DNA of 64,000 bases from Pseudobacteriovorax antillogorgiicola (GCF_900177345.1 NZ_FWZT01000015.1:124001-188000), one strand, 5' to 3'. Numbered from the stretch's first letter, positions 28,165-38,223 are shown. Numbers and translations: made by a program. The notes: generated from the letters alone by a model not told the origin.

Positions 28165-28641
28165 TCAAGCCTTGTCGGCGCAATCTGAGCACTGGCCAGA
28201 TAGCTCCATAAGCATGCCCTTAGACTCAAAGCTAGGATTGATCTGTTTGGTCATGAAGAAAAATGATCCCACCAACTCTTGGTCAAGTTGATGCTCTTCG
28301 ACTTTGCTGCACTCTTCACAGCGATAGATAATATGGACCAATTTATCGTGACAAATATGCTCTGAATTGCACTTGATGTATCTTCCTGATTGACCCACCA
28401 AATGAATCAACTCAAGGTCTGAATAAGTTTGGAGGGTGCGGTAGACGGTTGCAAAATCAAAGGAGGTTTGCCCTTGGTCGATGAGTCGCTGGTGAACATC
28501 CTTGGCAGTAAATGGAATATTAAGTTCTTGCAAGGTCTCGGAAATAGTCATCCGTGTGCGTGTGATGCGATGCCCCTGATCTTTAAGCTTTTCAGCGCAC
28601 TTCTCTTTAAAAGAGTGGCAACAATCTAGACTGGCTTCCAT
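28165..28641 (-). CDS. Fur-family metal-dependent repressor (candidate Zur)
   Basis: A 158-residue Fur-superfamily regulator. The winged helix at the N-terminus has GHRITRTRM and the recognition segment FDFATVYRTLQTY. The dimerisation half has the metal-binding HDKLVHIIYRCEECSKVEEH and a C-terminal CSDC, giving the two CxxC pairs of a structural zinc site. Fur, Zur and PerR cannot be separated safely from motifs alone. I lean to Zur because a Znu-type transporter, an AztD-like chaperone and four copies of one AT-rich palindrome lie within the next 10 kb. The start follows an AAGGGA site. It is a single gene, convergent with the receiver gene. Confidence 0.88.
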   Translation of the reverse strand: MEASLDCCHSFKEKCAEKLKDQGHRITRTRMTISETLQELNIPFTAKDVHQRLIDQGQTSFDFATVYRTLQTYSDLELIHLVGQSGRYIKCNSEHICHDKLVHIIYRCEECSKVEEHQLDQELVGSFFFMTKQINPSFESKGMLMELSGQCSDCADKA

Positions 28642-29272: not shown

Positions 29273-29662
29273 TTGCGCTACCTTTTGGACACATGTGCTC
29301 TGATATTCTACCTCCAAGATGAGGGAAGTATTGCTGAGGAGATTGAGTCATTGATCGCTCGCCATGAAGTAAGTTATTCGGTGATCAATATTTGGGAAAT
29401 GTCTCTCAAACGACGCCTGGGAAAGCTAAATTCTCCGCCTATTGATCGTGAATTCACTGATCAGCTGGCAAAATGCTTTAGGTCTAGCGTGTCAGTAGAG
29501 GATGCTCACATTGTAGCCATGGATAACCTTCCCGTATTTGATGATCATAAAGATCCTTTTGATAGATTGATTATTGCTCAGGCAATCTCTGAAAATCTCA
29601 CAGTTGTAACCTCCGATGACAAGTTTAGCCGATACGATGGTCTCAACCTTTATAGCCTTTGA
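29273..29662 (+). CDS. PIN-domain toxin (VapC-like ribonuclease)
   Basis: A 129-residue PIN-domain protein, second gene of a toxin-antitoxin pair. The metal-binding acids are in place: LLDTCAL at the N-terminus, the Glu in INIWEMSLK, the Asp pair in DPFDRLIIAQA and the Asp in VVTSDDKF. PIN toxins cut RNA, often tRNA or rRNA sites, when the antitoxin is lost. It starts at a TTG five bases after a strong GGAGGAG site, a weak codon that would keep toxin output below antitoxin output. It belongs to the PIN subgroup that pairs with Phd-type rather than VapB-type antitoxins. Confidence 0.92.
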   Translation: MRYLLDTCALIFYLQDEGSIAEEIESLIARHEVSYSVINIWEMSLKRRLGKLNSPPIDREFTDQLAKCFRSSVSVEDAHIVAMDNLPVFDDHKDPFDRLIIAQAISENLTVVTSDDKFSRYDGLNLYSL

Positions 29663-30179: not shown

Positions 30180-31052
30180 TCACTTGAGAGTTTTCATACT
30201 TTGAACAAAAGTAAAGAGTAACGCAATAGCTCCCATCATTAGAACGATTACAGAAATTGTTGGTAGACTAGGAACTACCAGGCTCAAAATGAATCCAGAT
30301 GGAACTCCGATGGTAATTAAGAGAGATACTGCTCGTAAGTGGTTGCGAATATTCGAGACATTCCAAGATTTCACCAATACCGTTGGTAGGAATAAAAGTG
30401 CCAATGTGCTCACGAAGCCCAATGTTTGTATGCATAAACATATATAGGCTAGTACTGAAAATTCGAAGACCGTTCTCTTGAGCTTTGAACCTCTATCGTG
30501 AACGAAACCAAAGAAGGCGTATTCGAAGGTTTCCCCCGCATAGGTTTTCCATCTCTTAAGGTAAGCACCGCCAAGGAGGAGAGTCGCTAAGCCGAGAATC
30601 TCTAGGGTATGAATACTGGCTGTCGTAAAATTTCCGAAAAAAACCCTACTGAACTGCTGTTCCAGAGCTGGAAATAGACGGCTAATCAAAGAGTTCATAG
30701 AAATTAGGCATATGAATATAGCTATGAAAATCGTATTACGAGATTCGGCTAGGTTCCTACTGATTTTAGCTAGTAATAGACTTAAACAGGCAGCAAAACC
30801 CAGGGCGGCTAAACTTGGAACAAGGGAGTGGCCTTCCACGCTAGCATGTAACGCCTCCTGTCCCCCTACAGATAGAATCCCCAGAAGTCCCAGAAGAACT
30901 CCTGACAAGGCTCCTTGTGACAGGCAAAAAACTTGTAGAGACTGGTCGCGACCAGCAAGATGGCTCCCTAGTTGGGCCAAAAGAATCCCAGAGAAACTGG
31001 CCACTACGATTGAAATCCAATATACATCCAGTAGGATTAAGAGATCTTTCAT
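30180..31052 (-). CDS. Metal ABC transporter permease, ZnuB-like (ABC-3 family)
   Basis: A 290-residue inner-membrane permease with about eight hydrophobic segments. It fits the ABC-3 family that imports Zn2+ or Mn2+: the GALSGVLLG stretch after the second helix, the FGNFTTAS loop and the long helical segments near the C-terminus (LVVPSLPTISVIVLMMGAIALL). It begins at an ATG that overlaps the stop of the ATPase gene by one base, with GGAG before it. It would form the channel for the binding protein and ATPase encoded just upstream in the same operon. Confidence 0.88.
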   Translation of the reverse strand: MKDLLILLDVYWISIVVASFSGILLAQLGSHLAGRDQSLQVFCLSQGALSGVLLGLLGILSVGGQEALHASVEGHSLVPSLAALGFAACLSLLLAKISRNLAESRNTIFIAIFICLISMNSLISRLFPALEQQFSRVFFGNFTTASIHTLEILGLATLLLGGAYLKRWKTYAGETFEYAFFGFVHDRGSKLKRTVFEFSVLAYICLCIQTLGFVSTLALLFLPTVLVKSWNVSNIRNHLRAVSLLITIGVPSGFILSLVVPSLPTISVIVLMMGAIALLFTFVQSMKTLK

Positions 31053-31687
31053 TACGAACTCCTCTCGACTGGCTTTAAATCAACAAGTTTTGGGTTAAAG
31101 GCATCCACAAGCATTTGCCTTTCTTCCCCATGAGCGATGATAACCATACTAGGAAGTCCTGGTGTTTCGAAGTAATCTCCAAGACGTTTAAGCACCAAAC
31201 CAGCATGGTTCACATCCAAGTGATTAAAGGGTTCATCCAGCAAAAGGAGCCTGGGGTGAGAGAGCATCGATCGACTAATAAGGGCTCTTTGGCGCTCACC
31301 ACCACTTGCAAAATTCCACTTTCTCTTTGCGAGGGCTACGTCGACTAGTCCCAACTCAATCATCTTCTCGAATTCGATTCCGGTGCCCATAGTTACCACA
31401 TCGCCAATTGTGTACGGTAGGTGGGAACTAATGTTGTGGCTTTGAGCTTGGTATACAAACTCATCACTTGAAACATATTTCTTAAGGGTTCCGCTGTAAT
31501 TTTGTTGTAAGCCGGCAATGGCTCGCATGAGGGTTGTTTTACCGGACCCATTGGGGCCTTGGACGATCGCCACCTCACCCTCATAAAGCTGGAGATTCAC
31601 CGGCTGAAATAAAGGATGATGTGCAATGTGGGCTTGGAAAGAATCTAGCTCAAGGATGAGCTTTGTGTGTTCTTGGGAGCTTATCAA
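31052..31687 (-). CDS. Metal ABC transporter ATP-binding protein, ZnuC-like
   Basis: A 211-residue ABC ATPase. Walker A is GPNGSGKTTL, the Q-loop is in EFVYQAQSH, the signature is FASGGERQRALISR (SGGE instead of SGGQ), Walker B is LLLLDEPFNHLD, and the switch His is in VIIAHGEE. The order and size suit the ZnuC/MntB type. It starts at a TTG inside the last codons of the binding-protein gene (38-base overlap), so the genes are translationally coupled. It works with the permease at 30180-31052. Confidence 0.9.
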   Translation of the reverse strand: MISSQEHTKLILELDSFQAHIAHHPLFQPVNLQLYEGEVAIVQGPNGSGKTTLMRAIAGLQQNYSGTLKKYVSSDEFVYQAQSHNISSHLPYTIGDVVTMGTGIEFEKMIELGLVDVALAKRKWNFASGGERQRALISRSMLSHPRLLLLDEPFNHLDVNHAGLVLKRLGDYFETPGLPSMVIIAHGEERQMLVDAFNPKLVDLKPVERSS

Positions 31688-32600
31688 TAATTGTATCCAC
31701 CAGGCTTTGCTGTAATAGTAGCGGGGTTTTTATGGACTCACGACCTGGTTGAGCCATGTCGCTATGAATTATGGCAGGGATCTTAGCAATTTTGGCAAAC
31801 TTTTCAACTACCGATCTGGAGTTGAATGGCACCGCTAAAACAGCTGAGACCTTGGCCTTCTTTGCGTCCATTGCTTTCAAAGCAACTGCGCCAGCAGATG
31901 GTGCAACACCTGGAGTTTCCTCCACATTGCCGAATAACTTAAATCCGTAGGACTTGAAGAAATAGGTGAAGTTGCCATGGTACTGCGCTAAAGTCGGCAA
32001 CTGGTCTCCAAAATGCTCCAGTAGCTTAGCTTTCAGTTCAACGTGCTTGGTTTGTAACCGTTTCTTAAGCCGCTCAAGGTTTCCCTGCATGCGCACCATT
32101 CCTGCCTCGTCAAGGTTGGCTGCGAAATGAATGGCCATCTTTTCCGCTGCCTTACTTAAGTCAGGAAGGCTCGCATAGTAGTGAGGGTTTCCCTCAGGGT
32201 GAACATCACCCATACTTCGATCGATGGGGCCTTTGGGCTTTTCCAAGGTCTCAATTGAAGCTCCCACATCGCAATAACCATCGCGACCGAATTGAATCTT
32301 TTGGTTTGCTGTTTTCTCGATAACTTTAGGTACCCAGCCAACCTCAAGAGATACACCAACAAAGCAGAATACATCAGCTTTGGAGGCAGCCAAGATAAAG
32401 CTCGGGACAGCATCCACGGCATGGGCATCTTCGTACCCATTTAGTAGGGTTGTGACGCTTCCATCCTTTTGGAGCAGTTCCGAAGCAACCCATGCGATAT
32501 CAGGGGTGGTCGCCACAACATTCAAAACTTTTCCATAAAGGGAAGATGTCACGATCAGAGACGTTAGCAGTAGCCATAAGGAAAGTTTTCGCAATTTCAT
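31650..32600 (-). CDS. Metal-binding ABC solute-binding protein, ZnuA/TroA family
   Basis: A 316-residue cluster A-I periplasmic binding protein with a signal peptide ending around SLYGKVLNVVATTPD. Metal-ligand positions can be seen: the first His in GYEDAHAVDAVPS, the second in EGNPHYYASLPD, the third in AQYHGNFTYFFKSYGF, and an acid in HSDMAQPGRES. There is no long His-rich loop as in ZnuA of enterobacteria; GDVHPEGNPHYY is a short equivalent. The ligand is probably Zn2+ (Mn2+ possible); the AztD-like gene nearby favours zinc. It follows the outer-membrane gene by five bases with an AGGAG site. Confidence 0.88.
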   Translation of the reverse strand: MKLRKLSLWLLLTSLIVTSSLYGKVLNVVATTPDIAWVASELLQKDGSVTTLLNGYEDAHAVDAVPSFILAASKADVFCFVGVSLEVGWVPKVIEKTANQKIQFGRDGYCDVGASIETLEKPKGPIDRSMGDVHPEGNPHYYASLPDLSKAAEKMAIHFAANLDEAGMVRMQGNLERLKKRLQTKHVELKAKLLEHFGDQLPTLAQYHGNFTYFFKSYGFKLFGNVEETPGVAPSAGAVALKAMDAKKAKVSAVLAVPFNSRSVVEKFAKIAKIPAIIHSDMAQPGRESIKTPLLLQQSLVDTIIDKLPRTHKAHP

Positions 32601-32605
32601 GTCTC

Positions 32606-33715
32606 CTAAAAATCATGACTGGGGTGAGCGCCCAGAATGAAGGCAGTTTGCATTAGCACTTGAGTGGTTTCTTCTTTGTCTCGACCTTCCTGATCCCTTT
32701 GATTGTGGTAGTAGGCCAGCCCAACCCTTGCAAACTCGCTGCTGAAATAAAGTAAGTTTATTTCGTAGCCGCCGCGGCTGTTGTCATTCTCAGTGGAAGT
32801 TACAGTACTGTAGTCATAGCGTGCACCAACAGCTAGGTCACGTGTCAGATAGTGCTGAAGGTAGGCATAGCCTCCCAGCAACTCATCAGTTGTTCCCGAA
32901 AGAGTTAACTCTCTCTTCCATAGTTCAGCCTGTAGCAGCCAGGTCAGGTGGCCGTATGTTCGGATCTTACTGGTAAGATCGAAACCATAAAGCTGCATTT
33001 TCTCGCCAATGGCACTGGTGCGTCCCACGTAGTTAAAGCCTATCTGAGTCGGTGCAACGATGTCGTTGTAGGTTACGATACGGCTATAGTGGGTTGGACT
33101 CTTGGGAAGGTCGTCTTCCACGTGGCTATGACCAAAGTCGCGGCCATTAGTTACACCAATCGTTACATCCATGTAGAAAGGTAGTGGCAGAAGTGAAGAC
33201 ACTTCGAGGCCAGTGTCAATGATTCCTTCGTTGGAACCGAACAATTCTTTCTGCATGATAGTTGGTGTTATGAATGGCCAGTCATGCTGATGAATCTGGT
33301 TTATGCGGCCGATCCCCAAGAAGAACTGCCCGGCTTTGAATCGAAAACCATCCAAAAGCTTAACAGAGCTTAGGTAAGCTTCGTGAACTTCAGGTTCTCC
33401 ATAGGCCTGACTTCCCTCAGGGTGGGCAGCGAAGCTTAGAACACCGTCGAACCTTGGGTCGATAGGTGCATAAAGCATGAATTCAGCGGAACGCAGTTTG
33501 TAGGACTCTTTAGATTGATACTGGACAGATGATGTTTCTTCACCAACAGGAAAAGAGCCGACAAGGTCAACAGCCAAGCTGGTTTTGAGCCCACCTTGGT
33601 CTGCTAACGCGGTGGATCTTAATATCGGGCTTAAGGCTGAAAGAAGAAAAAACCCCAGCGACATAAGTCGAGCTGGGTTTCGGTTTTGCTTAGTTCTTAT
33701 CAAGGGAAATCTCAC
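32606..33715 (-). CDS. Outer-membrane beta-barrel protein of the metal-uptake operon
   Basis: A 369-residue exported protein with a signal peptide (hydrophobic core MSLGFFLLSALSPIL) and an alternating beta-strand pattern throughout, ending in an aromatic residue (PSHDF) as outer-membrane barrels do. It has several His-containing loops (QIHQHDWPF, GHSHVEDD, AHPSHD), fitting a metal porin. It lacks a TonB plug, so it would be a passive channel. It starts at a GTG that overlaps the stop of the lipoprotein gene (33712-33715) and lies directly before the binding-protein gene. Zinc-linked porins of this kind are known in proteobacteria, but I cannot name a family with certainty. Confidence 0.75.
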   Translation of the reverse strand: MRFPLIRTKQNRNPARLMSLGFFLLSALSPILRSTALADQGGLKTSLAVDLVGSFPVGEETSSVQYQSKESYKLRSAEFMLYAPIDPRFDGVLSFAAHPEGSQAYGEPEVHEAYLSSVKLLDGFRFKAGQFFLGIGRINQIHQHDWPFITPTIMQKELFGSNEGIIDTGLEVSSLLPLPFYMDVTIGVTNGRDFGHSHVEDDLPKSPTHYSRIVTYNDIVAPTQIGFNYVGRTSAIGEKMQLYGFDLTSKIRTYGHLTWLLQAELWKRELTLSGTTDELLGGYAYLQHYLTRDLAVGARYDYSTVTSTENDNSRGGYEINLLYFSSEFARVGLAYYHNQRDQEGRDKEETTQVLMQTAFILGAHPSHDF

Positions 33716-34335
33716 TCTTCATCTTCGGCTTCAGCAGCGCCAACTGTGAAAGCGGTGACTGTTGCATTGTTGAGATTGAGTCCCACGAATTTACCGGCGC
33801 CGTAAATCCCGTCTGTTTTTTCAGCGGGCTCCGCGGATTCTGGGAAGTCATCTCCAATCCAAGCAATCACATGAGAACCATTATCTTCTCCGTTGTGTAC
33901 TTCGACGCTAATTGTGAAGCTTGTCGAGGTGTCCGCAGTACTGTTGAAGGTAGTAACGGTATCTTCTGTACCGCTACCAGTGGTATAGTTCATCGCTAGG
34001 TTACCGTCGTTCTTACCAAGGGTGACAATTTGTCCGCCAGTTAAGTCCGATTCAGAGAAGCTGTGAAGAGCTACGGAGCTGTCATCAGCAGCACTTAGAT
34101 CGATGGTTAGAAGGAAGTTAGTTTCTTCGGCGCGTTCTTGTACGAGGGTGTCTCCGAAATTCAGGGTGCCTGTGCCCGAAACGGAATTACCCTCTACTGT
34201 GGGCGATCCTGAGATAACAGTATAAGCCTTGCCGAAAACACTGGTGGTCGCCACTGGGTCGTCATCATCGCTACCACAGCCCGTGAAAACTACTACAGCC
34301 AATCCGGCGAATGCGAGTTTAGTCATAACTTTCAT
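33712..34335 (-). CDS. Acidic lipoprotein, first gene of the metal-uptake operon
   Basis: A 207-residue lipoprotein of unknown family. The signal peptide ends in the lipobox FTGC, followed by SDDDD. The mature protein is acidic, rich in Thr, Ser and Gly, poor in Lys, and probably all beta. There are only three His, so it is not an obvious metal sponge. The ATG follows a GGGAG site and its stop overlaps the start of the outer-membrane gene (GTGA). Being first in the operon, about 250 bases after a palindromic box, it should be the gene most strongly induced with the transporter. It may form a surface partner of the porin; this is inference. Confidence 0.75.
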   Translation of the reverse strand: MKVMTKLAFAGLAVVVFTGCGSDDDDPVATTSVFGKAYTVISGSPTVEGNSVSGTGTLNFGDTLVQERAEETNFLLTIDLSAADDSSVALHSFSESDLTGGQIVTLGKNDGNLAMNYTTGSGTEDTVTTFNSTADTSTSFTISVEVHNGEDNGSHVIAWIGDDFPESAEPAEKTDGIYGAGKFVGLNLNNATVTAFTVGAAEAEDEE

Positions 34336-34585: not shown

Positions 34586-34605
34586 TATTGCAACTATTTG
34601 CAATA
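34586..34605. promoter_or_regulatory. Palindromic box 1, candidate Zur operator
   Basis: TATTGCAACTATTTGCAATA, a 20-bp near-perfect palindrome with one mismatched pair. It lies 250 bases upstream of the first gene of the metal-uptake operon. It shares the core TGCAAATATTTGCA with three further copies in the next 3.7 kb. Confidence 0.65.
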
Positions 34606-35131
34606 GATAGGAAATAATTGAAGCAGGAGCTGAGAGTTGAAGGCTGTGGGCAGAAACCAGGAAGTGAAGGAGCGGCGACGCTAATACGGATTCAGAAAGA
34701 TCTATAGACTCATCTAAAGTGTTTTGTCAACAGTATAGAGCTTGAAAGATTTCCAGACTTTCCCGTCTTACCCGCAGGTGGTTGGTATCCATATTTATGC
34801 CCATAAATAGCAGATATTATTGCTTTTATGTGAGTCCGGGTTTTGGTAGTAAGTGTGATCTCCTGCAGCTCGTCGAATGATGATGACACTCCAAATGGCC
34901 TTCGATAGTATCAAGTACACGACGACCAATGCAGGCGATGCGAGCCTCGCAAGCGAGGATCAAGCCTTAGCTAGCTCAGGAAGTCTTCTTTTTCGCGATG
35001 TGTTTGCTTGTTCAGTAACCGAAGGTGGTCAGATCGAACTAGGTTTTAGTCCCGTAGAAGGGGGGATCTAGGCTTTTGTGAGCTTCTCAGATATTGGCAT
35101 TCACTCGCACACTCTTTTCAAAGACAGCATA

Positions 35132-35151
35132 TAATACAAATATTTGCAATA
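35132..35151. promoter_or_regulatory. Palindromic box 2, candidate Zur operator
   Basis: TAATACAAATATTTGCAATA. The right half is the full consensus; the left half has two mismatches. It lies 236 bases upstream of the EAL-gene start and may be a weaker companion of box 3. Confidence 0.6.
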
Positions 35152-35239
35152 TAGGCTTAGTTTTTAGCTTTGGATAAGGATAAAATGACTAGTATATATT
35201 TACAGTATTCGGTTACAACAGTATCGATGTCAAAATTTT

Positions 35240-35259
35240 TAATGCAAATATTTGCAATA
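35240..35259. promoter_or_regulatory. Palindromic box 3, candidate Zur operator
   Basis: TAATGCAAATATTTGCAATA, with a perfect 14-bp core. It lies about 128 bases upstream of the GTG start of the EAL gene and 89 bases after box 2, so that gene has two boxes. Confidence 0.7.
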
Positions 35260-35386
35260 AAAATCATTTTGATGTCAAAATATAATAAAAGGTCTGTGCC
35301 TGTGGGGATTAAGACCGGCTCTAGCCAGCAGTGTCGACGCTAATCAGTTAATAAATCTCCGTCGGCCTTTGTATAGTGGGAGCAGC

Positions 35387-36619
35387 GTGCTGGGAACGAC
35401 TAAAAAACGTCGCTATTCTCCTGGGGAAGTTATTTTTTCTCAAGGCGATAGTGGAAACTGTGCTTTTATTATTGAGATGGGGCGGGTCGAAGTATTCGTT
35501 ACTTCAGATTTAGAAAAAGTCGTTCTTGCTAATTTAGGTGTCGGAGAAATTTTTGGCGAGATGTCTGTTCTCGACGGTTCCCCTCGCTCCGCTTCGGCAG
35601 TTGCACTGGAGAGCGCTGAACTAGCGATTGTTTCGAATGAAGCGATCTCAGAAAGATTCGAAGCCGCTGATCCAATTGTTCGCCTTCTGATAACTATGCT
35701 GTTGAAACATGTTCGATTTTCAAATCGTTCTGTATTAAATCAAACAGATGTTTCGAGGTCCGTATCGAGACTACTAGAGGCAGACGCAATAGCGAAGCAG
35801 AAACATGAAGCTCTAGATCGCCTGAGGTTGGAATCTGACTTGAAGCAAGGGTTGCAAGAAGGGCAGTTTCAGCTCCATTTTCAACCTATCGTTAATATGC
35901 TGGATCGTCAGTTGGTGGGGTTTGAATCCTTGATACGCTGGCATAGCCCCAATAGAGGGCTAGTAAGGCCTGATGTTTTCATTGGTATTGCGGAGGAGAC
36001 GAGTCTCATAGTTCCCATTGGTAGATGGGTTATAGAGCAGGCATGTAAGCATCTCTCCTTATTCAAAAAGCAGCTTGAAAAACATCGTTTCCCACAGGCA
36101 CTATTTATGAGTATCAATATATCAGGCCGTCAGTTCCAAGACCCACACTTCTTTAATCACCTCTTAGAGGCTATAAAAGAAACTTGTACTTCCCCAAAAG
36201 ATATTAAGCTAGAAGTTACAGAAAGAACACTCATGCAAGGTGCTTCCGCACTTCATATGATCAACAAGTCTAGAAAGCTTGGGTTTCAGGTTGCACTTGA
36301 TGACTTTGGAACAGGTTATTCTAGTTTGAGTTATTTAAGCCGATTCGAGGTTGATAACTTGAAGGTTGATCAATCATTCGTGAGAAATATGAATAAAGAT
36401 AGGAAAGTGCAAGTTATCACAAAAGCTATCATCGATATGGCAATGGGTATGGGGCTGCCTTCGATTGCAGAGGGAATTGAAACAGAGGGAGACTTTGAGA
36501 CACTTAAACAGATGGGGTGTGAATTTGGTCAAGGGTATCTGTTCGCAAAACCACTGTCATATCCTCAGGCGATATCGTACCTCTTGAAACAAAAAGAAAC
36601 ATATGGATTCACGGGATAG
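35387..36619 (+). CDS. c-di-GMP phosphodiesterase: cNMP-binding domain fused to EAL
   Basis: A 410-residue cytoplasmic protein. An N-terminal cyclic-nucleotide-binding (CAP_ED) domain (about 10-110) has SPGEVIFSQGD, GEIFGEMSVLDGSPRSASAV and the phosphate-binding Arg in that last stretch. A short linker leads to an EAL domain (about 160-400) with the catalytic Glu in the variant FESLIRW (ESL for EAL), metal ligands in SINISGRQF, EVTERTLM, DDFGTGYSSLSYL, the Lys in LKVDQSFV, and QGYLFAKPL. All expected catalytic residues seem present, so it should degrade c-di-GMP under control of a bound cyclic nucleotide. The GTG at 35387 has GGGAG five bases before it. Two copies of the zinc-island palindrome lie in its promoter region. 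Confidence 0.9.
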   Translation: MLGTTKKRRYSPGEVIFSQGDSGNCAFIIEMGRVEVFVTSDLEKVVLANLGVGEIFGEMSVLDGSPRSASAVALESAELAIVSNEAISERFEAADPIVRLLITMLLKHVRFSNRSVLNQTDVSRSVSRLLEADAIAKQKHEALDRLRLESDLKQGLQEGQFQLHFQPIVNMLDRQLVGFESLIRWHSPNRGLVRPDVFIGIAEETSLIVPIGRWVIEQACKHLSLFKKQLEKHRFPQALFMSINISGRQFQDPHFFNHLLEAIKETCTSPKDIKLEVTERTLMQGASALHMINKSRKLGFQVALDDFGTGYSSLSYLSRFEVDNLKVDQSFVRNMNKDRKVQVITKAIIDMAMGMGLPSIAEGIETEGDFETLKQMGCEFGQGYLFAKPLSYPQAISYLLKQKETYGFTG

Positions 36620-36875
36620 CCCTTCTCGAATTACTGGAAAAACCTATAAAACAAGCTACTTTCCTGCCGTCATCGGGAATGGTGAAGTGCATTCAGATTC
36701 CTAGCTGAGTGCTAATTTAGGATCAAAATCTTGCAATGTATCGAGGCTCCACTCCTGATCGGTTGAAAACAGATTTTTTTCAAGTTTCTCGATCAAAAGC
36801 GGCATCTCAGTAAGAAGATTCTCAGATATACTCTTCCGTGGAGTTGTCCTCCGTAGTTTGCCAATTCTCAACAGT

Positions 36876-38093
36876 CTACTGGGAACCAAAACTAGTCAAC
36901 ATAGTGGGAGTTCCACCAATCTGGATAACTTTCTTAATGGAGAGAGATATCAGGTCAAAGACAACCACTTCACCATCCCTTGGGTTGCTGATGAAGACAA
37001 ACCCTTGGCCAACAGTTATCTGAGGGTCTATAGCCCCATGGTTCTCCCCGGTGGACTCTGATGTGACTTTCGATTGGTGAATAAGTTCTCGGGTTTCTAC
37101 ATCAAGGACTCCAAGTGTGCCATCACGACCTAAGAAGATAAGATAGCGACCATCACTTGAAAATTTAAAGCGGCTATAGTCCATCGACATCTCGCGAATA
37201 GTCATTGCCTTAGTACTTGGGTCGATCTCAACATAGCGATTTTTACCGAAGTTACCCACTATGTAAGGGGCCTTGTTATGGGCTACCAAGGTACCCACCC
37301 GCCCCTTATCCTCAGGGCCTAGCTCACTCGGGGCAACTTTATAACTCTTCAGCCCTTCATCTGCTTCTTCAATCATCAACACGCCATCACCGCAACCGAA
37401 GGCTACCACTTTATCTGTCGCAGCTTCTCCGTGTAACGCTGGGCAGTCTTCAAAATTTTGGCCTACCCGATTGCCTGTCTGATTGAACACCTGAATGCCG
37501 ACAGGAAGCCCTCCTTCCTGTGCCTCCTCAATCAATGGTTTTGATACCAAAAAATGATCTCCGAAGGCAAGTGCTACGCCGTGGTGGGGAGCCCCTGAAT
37601 CTATGGTTATTGGGTCGTTTCCAAGGCCATCTTCTAACGATTCAGGGATGAACTGAGCGATTCCTCCTTCATCGAAGAAGATCGCTGCATAGCCAGCTTT
37701 GGCGACGAAATGGATGGGAAGAGGGCCTTCAAGGCTTGTTTCCATGAGGCGAGGGTTGTCTTGAACTTGCACTCCATTTTCAAACCATAGCCCCCCATCG
37801 ACAATGTTCACCTTATTTTCCGTCATCTGTATAGCATAGGCGAATCGTCCAGTTTCTCCGGTATAGACCCTAGAAGTTCCAGAGGTTGGAATGCTTTGTA
37901 GAACCTTCCCTTCACCTAGGTCCACGACCTTAAGAATAGGCTCCAAACCGTCTGCTACGAGAATTCTACTAGCAACTGGACCTTGAAGGTTTAAAGGGTT
38001 TTGCTGATCCTGATCATCTTTGCTATCCGAGCAGGATAAGATCAAGAGGAGTGAAAATATTGGTAGTGATACTTTATTCAAAATGGACTGCAC
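36876..38093 (-). CDS. AztD-like zinc-chaperone lipoprotein (beta-propeller)
   Basis: About 405 residues. The signal peptide ends in the lipobox LILSC, then a linker and about seven WD-like repeats of a beta-propeller. It resembles AztD, the periplasmic zinc metallochaperone that loads the AztC binding protein: RILVADGLEPILKVVDL at the start, the His pair in SGAPHHGVALAFGDHFLVS, LPVGIQVFNQTG, and CPALHGEAATDKVVAFGC with further His. AztD is normally soluble; here it would be lipid-anchored. The neighbouring gene is the EAL phosphodiesterase (convergent) rather than a transporter. The GTG at 38093 sits six bases after AAGGAG; a GTG at 38111 and ATG at 38099 are in frame. A palindromic box lies 111 bases upstream. 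Confidence 0.68.
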   Translation of the reverse strand: MQSILNKVSLPIFSLLLILSCSDSKDDQDQQNPLNLQGPVASRILVADGLEPILKVVDLGEGKVLQSIPTSGTSRVYTGETGRFAYAIQMTENKVNIVDGGLWFENGVQVQDNPRLMETSLEGPLPIHFVAKAGYAAIFFDEGGIAQFIPESLEDGLGNDPITIDSGAPHHGVALAFGDHFLVSKPLIEEAQEGGLPVGIQVFNQTGNRVGQNFEDCPALHGEAATDKVVAFGCGDGVLMIEEADEGLKSYKVAPSELGPEDKGRVGTLVAHNKAPYIVGNFGKNRYVEIDPSTKAMTIREMSMDYSRFKFSSDGRYLIFLGRDGTLGVLDVETRELIHQSKVTSESTGENHGAIDPQITVGQGFVFISNPRDGEVVVFDLISLSIKKVIQIGGTPTMLTSFGSQ

Positions 38094-38203
38094 GATCATC
38101 TCCTTTTCCACCCATAAGGGTCAGTGGCAACGTACTGCCTATTGATACACACCCCACATGAGAGCGCTTTGGTCATTGCCGATATATGTCACAACCAAAT
38201 TTT

Positions 38204-38223
38204 ATTTGCAAATACTTGCATTA
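38204..38223. promoter_or_regulatory. Palindromic box 4, candidate Zur operator
   Basis: ATTTGCAAATACTTGCATTA, with one mismatch in the 14-bp core. It lies about 111 bases upstream of the AztD-like gene. With boxes 1-3 this ties three transcription units to one regulator. Confidence 0.65.

Follow-up and report, generated by a model that had tools for sequence, protein, structure and literature searches.

The locus described here lies in a 64,000-nt stretch of the Pseudobacteriovorax antillogorgiicola genome (NZ_FWZT01000015.1:124001-188000, hereafter the window) and centers on four 20-bp near-palindromes, which we consider highly probable operators of a Zur regulon, that is, of a regulon under a zinc-dependent repressor of the Fur family. 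A reading of the window made before any database search (the sequence-only reading) had placed the palindromes at 34586, 35132, 35240, and 38204. All four are present at these positions, upstream of a ZnuABC-type operon, of a gene for an EAL-type cyclic di-GMP (c-di-GMP) phosphodiesterase, and of a gene for an AztD-like protein, and profile matches bore out the neighbors that had been named, namely ZnuA, an ATP-binding cassette (ABC) ATPase, the EAL protein with its cyclic-nucleotide (cNMP)-binding domain, and the AztD-like protein. In the order given, 18, 16, 18, and 12 of the 20 positions are self-complementary. The 14-bp core said to be shared by the sites, TGCAAATATTTGCA, occurs exactly in the window only at 35243, and each of the remaining three cores is one mismatch away from it. 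At up to two mismatches the window contains exactly these four sites, as the earlier claim of no further full copy had it, compared to 0.25 expected from shuffled sequences, and none of 100 shuffles reached four.

In the 7.28-Mb genome of P. antillogorgiicola, the pattern with up to two mismatches was found at 43 sites, compared to 11 for the reversed pattern. The two-mismatch class falls mostly inside open reading frames (ORFs) and looks like chance. Sites with zero or one mismatch number 10 against about 1.6 expected, and all ten fall between plausible genes, two of them (L019 and L021) overlapping short ORFs given by a naive gene caller. A symmetric 20-bp scoring matrix was made from the nine best sites of the genome. 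These nine score 25 to 32 bits, where 0.02 sites per genome would be expected at 25 bits or more if bases are assumed to be independent, and the next best of the 43 candidates reaches 19.3 bits. The top-scoring site found in the genome is box 3 of the window (35240, 32.2 bits). The matrix was applied to loci from the mismatch searches and may overlook sites that depart strongly from the core. A 16-bit site (L020) and the two-mismatch sites within ORFs were taken as chance and not as operators. With about eight promoters, the regulon in this genome is larger than the window alone suggested.

Outside the window, too, strong sites stand before zinc genes. One box is followed by a MerC-like gene and folE2, which encodes the zinc-independent GTP cyclohydrolase (L016), another by a 74-aa gene and a ZigA-type COG0523 GTPase (L017), and a third by a second ZigA-type GTPase and DUF1826 (L018). 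A fourth box sits in a divergent locus (L021), where a lipoprotein gene faces away from genes for a His-rich secreted protein and a TonB receptor. Both GTPases are named ZigA-type because they score 553 to 570 bits with NF038288, narrowly under its cut-off of 600. FolE2, COG0523 GTPases, and TonB receptors are among the standard Zur targets (PMC6103462; PMC2770081). Thus, the suggestion that a genome scan would find strong sites before zinc genes held for folE2, two zigA genes, DUF1826, the TonB receptor, the znu operon, and the aztD-like gene. As for zinc-free ribosomal-protein paralogues, none were recognized near the annotated strong sites of this genome or of the second genome described below, where ribosomal families were not searched genome-wide. 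A further box, at L019, is followed by a stretch of about 110 nt (L019:5270-5400; G000:C16 about 33270-33400) that ends in a strong intrinsic terminator and folds far better than its shuffles (z -4.8). Rfam gave no match to it, and we regard this stretch as a candidate zinc-starvation small RNA.

Conservation was assessed in Pseudobacteriovorax sp. isolate DT_89 (G001), which is listed in the same family but another genus. As the matrix was made from sites of the first genome, the second genome provides an independent test, and in it the matrix found at least 14 sites at 20 bits or more, compared to 0.6 expected. These were drawn from about 50 of 91 sites, with at least about 13 promoters counted, so the DT_89 regulon may be larger. 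A box precedes the znu-operon orthologue (L096:18520), which has the same gene order as in the window (identities in Table 1), and another precedes the AztD-like orthologue (L100:4987). Boxes were also found at the orthologues of folE2 (53% identity), both zigA genes (59 and 67%), DUF1826 (49%), the lipoprotein, His-rich, and TonB set (33, 38, and 55%), and a thioredoxin-like gene (37%). In total, seven boxed target sets are common to both genera, which is the cross-genome conservation that the sequence-only reading had put forward as a check. Two DT_89 boxes flank a Fur-family gene, one of them 8 bp from the ORF start, an arrangement that links the box with a Fur-family regulator. In a phylum-wide search at up to one mismatch (58 genomes), five sites were found in the genome of the window, three in DT_89, and zero to three elsewhere; with such counts in the remaining genomes, the box cannot be claimed beyond these two genera.

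Table 1. Putative operators and associated genes of the window. Identities refer to orthologues in DT_89; scores are from the 20-bp matrix.
Feature	Coordinates	Strand	Context or evidence	Score (bits)
Zur box 1 (putative), TATTGCAACTATTTGCAATA	34586..34605		251 bp upstream of first gene of znu operon	30.3
Zur box 2 (putative), TAATACAAATATTTGCAATA	35132..35151		upstream of EAL gene	28.5
Zur box 3 (putative), TAATGCAAATATTTGCAATA, exact core	35240..35259		upstream of EAL gene	32.2
Zur box 4 (putative), ATTTGCAAATACTTGCATTA	38204..38223		~93 bp upstream of AztD-like gene	25.4
Candidate Zur (Fur family)	28165..28641	-	PF01475 1.8e-11, 44.7 bits, cut-off 23.1	
znu operon gene 1, predicted lipoprotein, 207 aa	33712..34335	-	65% identical orthologue, same operon position	
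znu operon gene 2, 369 aa, possible outer-membrane protein (inferred)	32606..33715	-	77% identical orthologue, same position	
ZnuA/AztC-type zinc-binding protein	31650..32600	-	PF01297 5.8e-27; NF040870 5e-19; 78% identical orthologue	
ZnuC-type ABC ATPase	31052..31687	-	PF00005 4e-20; 72% identical orthologue	
ZnuB-type permease	30180..31052	-	75% identical orthologue matches PF00950 ABC-3, 7e-7	
cNMP-binding domain + EAL c-di-GMP phosphodiesterase	35369..36619	+	PF00563 8e-73; PF00027 1e-21	
AztD-like periplasmic zinc chaperone (propeller)	36876..38111	-	NF038015 6.5e-54; 45% identical orthologue	

The Fur-family gene of the window, already named as the local candidate regulator by the sequence-only reading, is one of two such genes recognized in the genome, the other being a canonical Fur on contig C21. 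The sensing site of Escherichia coli Zur consists of H77, C88, H96, and E111 (PMC4219657). By alignment, H80, C91, and E116 of the window protein correspond to H77, C88, and E111, and its C108, C111, C151, and C154 correspond to the structural cysteines C103, C106, C143, and C146, while the canonical Fur has no equivalents of H77 and C88. Carrying Zur ligands that the other Fur of the genome does not have, the window protein is very probably a Zur. It scores only 23 bits with the enterobacterial Zur model NF008646 (cut-off 167), with other Fur-family models also far below their cut-offs, and is thus a divergent Zur-like protein rather than an equivalog of E. coli Zur. In the complex of Magnetospirillum Fur with its operator, a Tyr-Arg pair of the recognition helix contacts T and G of the half-site (PMC4506495), and this pair is kept as Y67-R68 in the window protein. 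A tree grouped the window protein with two DT_89 Fur-family proteins (support 92/78, long branches), and all three have the recognition-helix sequence DFATVYR. From these features, we have good, slightly lower confidence that this gene encodes the regulator of the boxes.

Each of the 23 listed boxes of the two genomes is even-centered and reads TGCAA-N4-TTGCA with occasional single-base departures, the full form being TTGCAA-N4-TTGCAA with its center between two bases. The Magnetospirillum Fur operator was crystallized with the sequence TTGCAAATCATTTGCAA (PMC4506495), the Nur box of Streptomyces is tTGCaa-N5-ttGCAA (PMC3919588), and the Zur palindromes in review are of 9-1-9, 7-1-7, and 23 bp (PMC6103462). 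All of these are odd-centered, a rule based on a few published operators and not on a complete survey. The sequence-only reading had called the motif unlike known Zur boxes, and it does differ from those of the review in both sequence and centering, although the even center had escaped that reading. In sequence terms, the half-site is shared and the spacing in this lineage is one base shorter than in the operators compared. Boxes with five intervening bases do occur in relatives of the same order. Another family (G020, G024, and, for the regulator gene, also G012 and G034) has TTGCAAATAATTTGCAA-type N5 boxes upstream of zigA and of a Fur-family gene from another subgroup. Positions of the N5 TTGCAA boxes in the other family are L172:2729, L173:2729, L121:1372, L122:1349, L124:2066, and L127:1354. 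In other families of the order, searches around fur-family, DUF1826, and folE2 genes did not detect the even-centered box, and upstream of zigA there were either no strict palindromes or N5 ones, so the even-centered box is not order-wide. The genome of the window and DT_89 show only scattered two-mismatch matches to the N5 form. An odd-centered pattern was considered as a second motif of the window's genome and rejected, as only five two-mismatch matches were found. In one genome of the same order (G036, family f8), the N5 pattern gave 19 matches at two mismatches versus 0 for the control; these matches may represent a TTGCAA-type iron Fur box.

Several findings weigh against a Zur regulon run by the window gene. 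The even-centered spacing is unlike that of the Fur-family boxes compared, the column of E. coli Zur H96 holds a Leu in the window protein (H95 and H103 are close by), and the window zur gene has no box of its own. Moreover, the window protein is only 30 to 32% identical to the box-flanked Fur-family protein of DT_89, DT_89 has a second Zur-type paralogue that is 56% identical to the box-flanked one, and no protein gene is evident downstream of one of the strongest boxes (L019, 29.7 bits). The spacing and the unboxed zur gene would fit a metal regulon whose binder is the canonical Fur or an unrecognized regulator from a different family, such as a MarR-type analogue of AdcR; zinc repressors of the AdcR type, which lie outside the Fur family, are known (PMC6372160). 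A different binder is nonetheless improbable: the Fur-family gene flanked by boxes in DT_89 is Zur-type, Magnetospirillum Fur and Streptomyces Nur use this half-site, and the canonical Fur lacks the Zur ligands. That same half-site, identical in the Nur box (PMC3919588), could instead mean that the Fur-family regulator senses a metal other than zinc, either nickel like Nur or manganese like Mur, with zinc genes being read into the set. This is less probable still, given that folE2, ZigA, DUF1826, and the AztD-like gene are classic genes of zinc starvation, that the protein carries the Zur ligand set, and that no nickel or manganese genes were found among the targets. An ordinary AT-rich palindrome with gene associations arising by chance would be in keeping with the two-mismatch matches inside ORFs. 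The strong sites, however, outnumber chance expectation more than a hundredfold, lie between genes, and are found again upstream of the orthologues of a second genus; this cross-genus conservation refutes the chance reading, to which we assign a negligible probability. The Zur regulon that the sequence-only reading had proposed is consequently the one that the zinc-gene targets, the conservation across genera, and the Zur-type ligands favor.

Whether Zur control extends to c-di-GMP turnover is a question of the two boxes near the EAL gene. The EAL protein has an N-terminal cyclic-nucleotide domain and all seven catalytic motifs (ESLIRW, NISGRQ, EVTE, DDFG, KVD, AEGIE, and GQGY), so it is apparently, by its motifs, a catalytic c-di-GMP phosphodiesterase. 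The boxes lie about 218 and 110 bp upstream of the ORF start, promoter prediction there was not decisive, and no EAL gene stands behind a box among the listed DT_89 sites, all of which would allow the two boxes to act on a distant promoter or on some other element in the gap between 34605 and 35369. We consider this rather unlikely, as two strong boxes stand directly upstream of the EAL gene and the gap holds no other credible gene. In DT_89, a box precedes a different c-di-GMP phosphodiesterase, an HD-GYP protein with HD and HHE...GGGYP motifs; EAL and HD-GYP enzymes are unrelated, and recruitment was therefore probably independent. Experimental precedent, which the sequence-only reading had not mentioned, exists in Vibrio cholerae, where Zur represses the EAL phosphodiesterase ZpdA (VC0515; PMC12607878). 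Control of the EAL gene by Zur is thus probable.

Our working model is that Zur, encoded 6 kb from the boxes, would bind as a zinc-loaded dimer to TTGCAA-N4-TTGCAA near each promoter and block transcription. Zinc scarcity would release Zur from the DNA and derepress the zinc importer operon, the AztD-like chaperone, the TonB receptor with its His-rich partners, the two ZigA-type metallochaperone GTPases, DUF1826, and FolE2. The EAL phosphodiesterase would be derepressed as well, probably lowering c-di-GMP in zinc-poor surroundings.

Compared to the Zur regulons of other proteobacteria (E. coli, Pseudomonas, Xanthomonas, and Neisseria; PMC6103462), the present one shares a Fur-family protein, whose zinc ligands are for the most part identical, and the targets znuABC, TonB receptor, COG0523 GTPase, and folE2. 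It differs in the sequence and even center of its operator, in the presence of the AztD-like protein, DUF1826, and c-di-GMP phosphodiesterases in the set, and in that no ribosomal paralogue was found among the targets. The half-site TTGCAA is common to the Magnetospirillum Fur operator and the Streptomyces Nur box, and the Tyr-Arg contacts of the Fur-DNA structure are conserved here, but those operators are spaced by N5 instead of N4 and serve other metals and other genes. ZpdA of V. cholerae is likewise an EAL c-di-GMP phosphodiesterase, with Zur control being putative in our case; it combines EAL with HDOD in a horizontally acquired operon, whereas here a cNMP-binding domain is joined to EAL and DT_89 uses HD-GYP. 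As in the AztABCD zinc import system of Paracoccus, an AztC-like binding protein and an AztD-like chaperone lie in one neighborhood, under separate boxes, but the matches fall far under curated cut-offs (183 of 400 bits and 69 of 350) and the operon opens with two unclassified conserved proteins. Overall, the regulon itself appears to be of the classic Zur kind, set apart by its N4 spacing and its apparent c-di-GMP phosphodiesterase targets.

This analysis defines a probable zinc-starvation regulon for a lineage for which a literature search found no paper on zinc regulation; a search with the exact box strings also found no paper. Since other members of the order keep this half-site but space it by N5, the lineage offers a natural experiment on how the distance between half-sites is sensed by Fur-family dimers, and the phosphodiesterase targets suggest that zinc control of c-di-GMP recurs outside Vibrio. 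A broader proposal, for which we see roughly even chances, is that the Zur lineage of the two Pseudobacteriovorax-type genera brought its half-sites one bp closer, as in 23 of 23 sites, and in parallel wired zinc starvation independently to c-di-GMP breakdown via unrelated phosphodiesterases (EAL, and HD-GYP in DT_89), possibly also to a small RNA. If true, the closer half-sites would call for either a dimer of altered geometry or binding by two dimers.

The remaining observations concern individual genes. The AztD-like protein matches NF038015 with 183 bits over nearly its full length and, with the cut-off of 400 not reached, is designated AztD-like only. The ZnuB-type permease itself had no Pfam match, and operon gene 2 had neither a Pfam nor an NCBIfam match. 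The 207- and 369-aa proteins (32606-34335), conserved and unclassified, head the znu operon in both genera and become candidate zinc-uptake parts. In DT_89, a box precedes an operon in which a ZnuA-like gene is accompanied by an ABC ATPase and a FtsX/MacB-type permease (L099:712-4678), the permease being an unusual partner for a metal-binding protein. Eight DT_89 boxes lie within one 31-kb zinc island on contig C34 (L095 and L096; 177-209 kb), which holds genes less usual for Zur-type regulons, namely those for a secreted protein bearing a zincin-like HEVGH motif (L096:8426-9349), an ArsP_1 permease, and a transglutaminase-like protein. The second Zur-type paralogue of DT_89 (L133; G001:C71:70553-70981) has no box of its own. 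Finally, a PIN-domain protein encoded between zur and the znu operon of the window (29273-29662; PF01850, 4e-13) is probably the toxin of a toxin-antitoxin pair.

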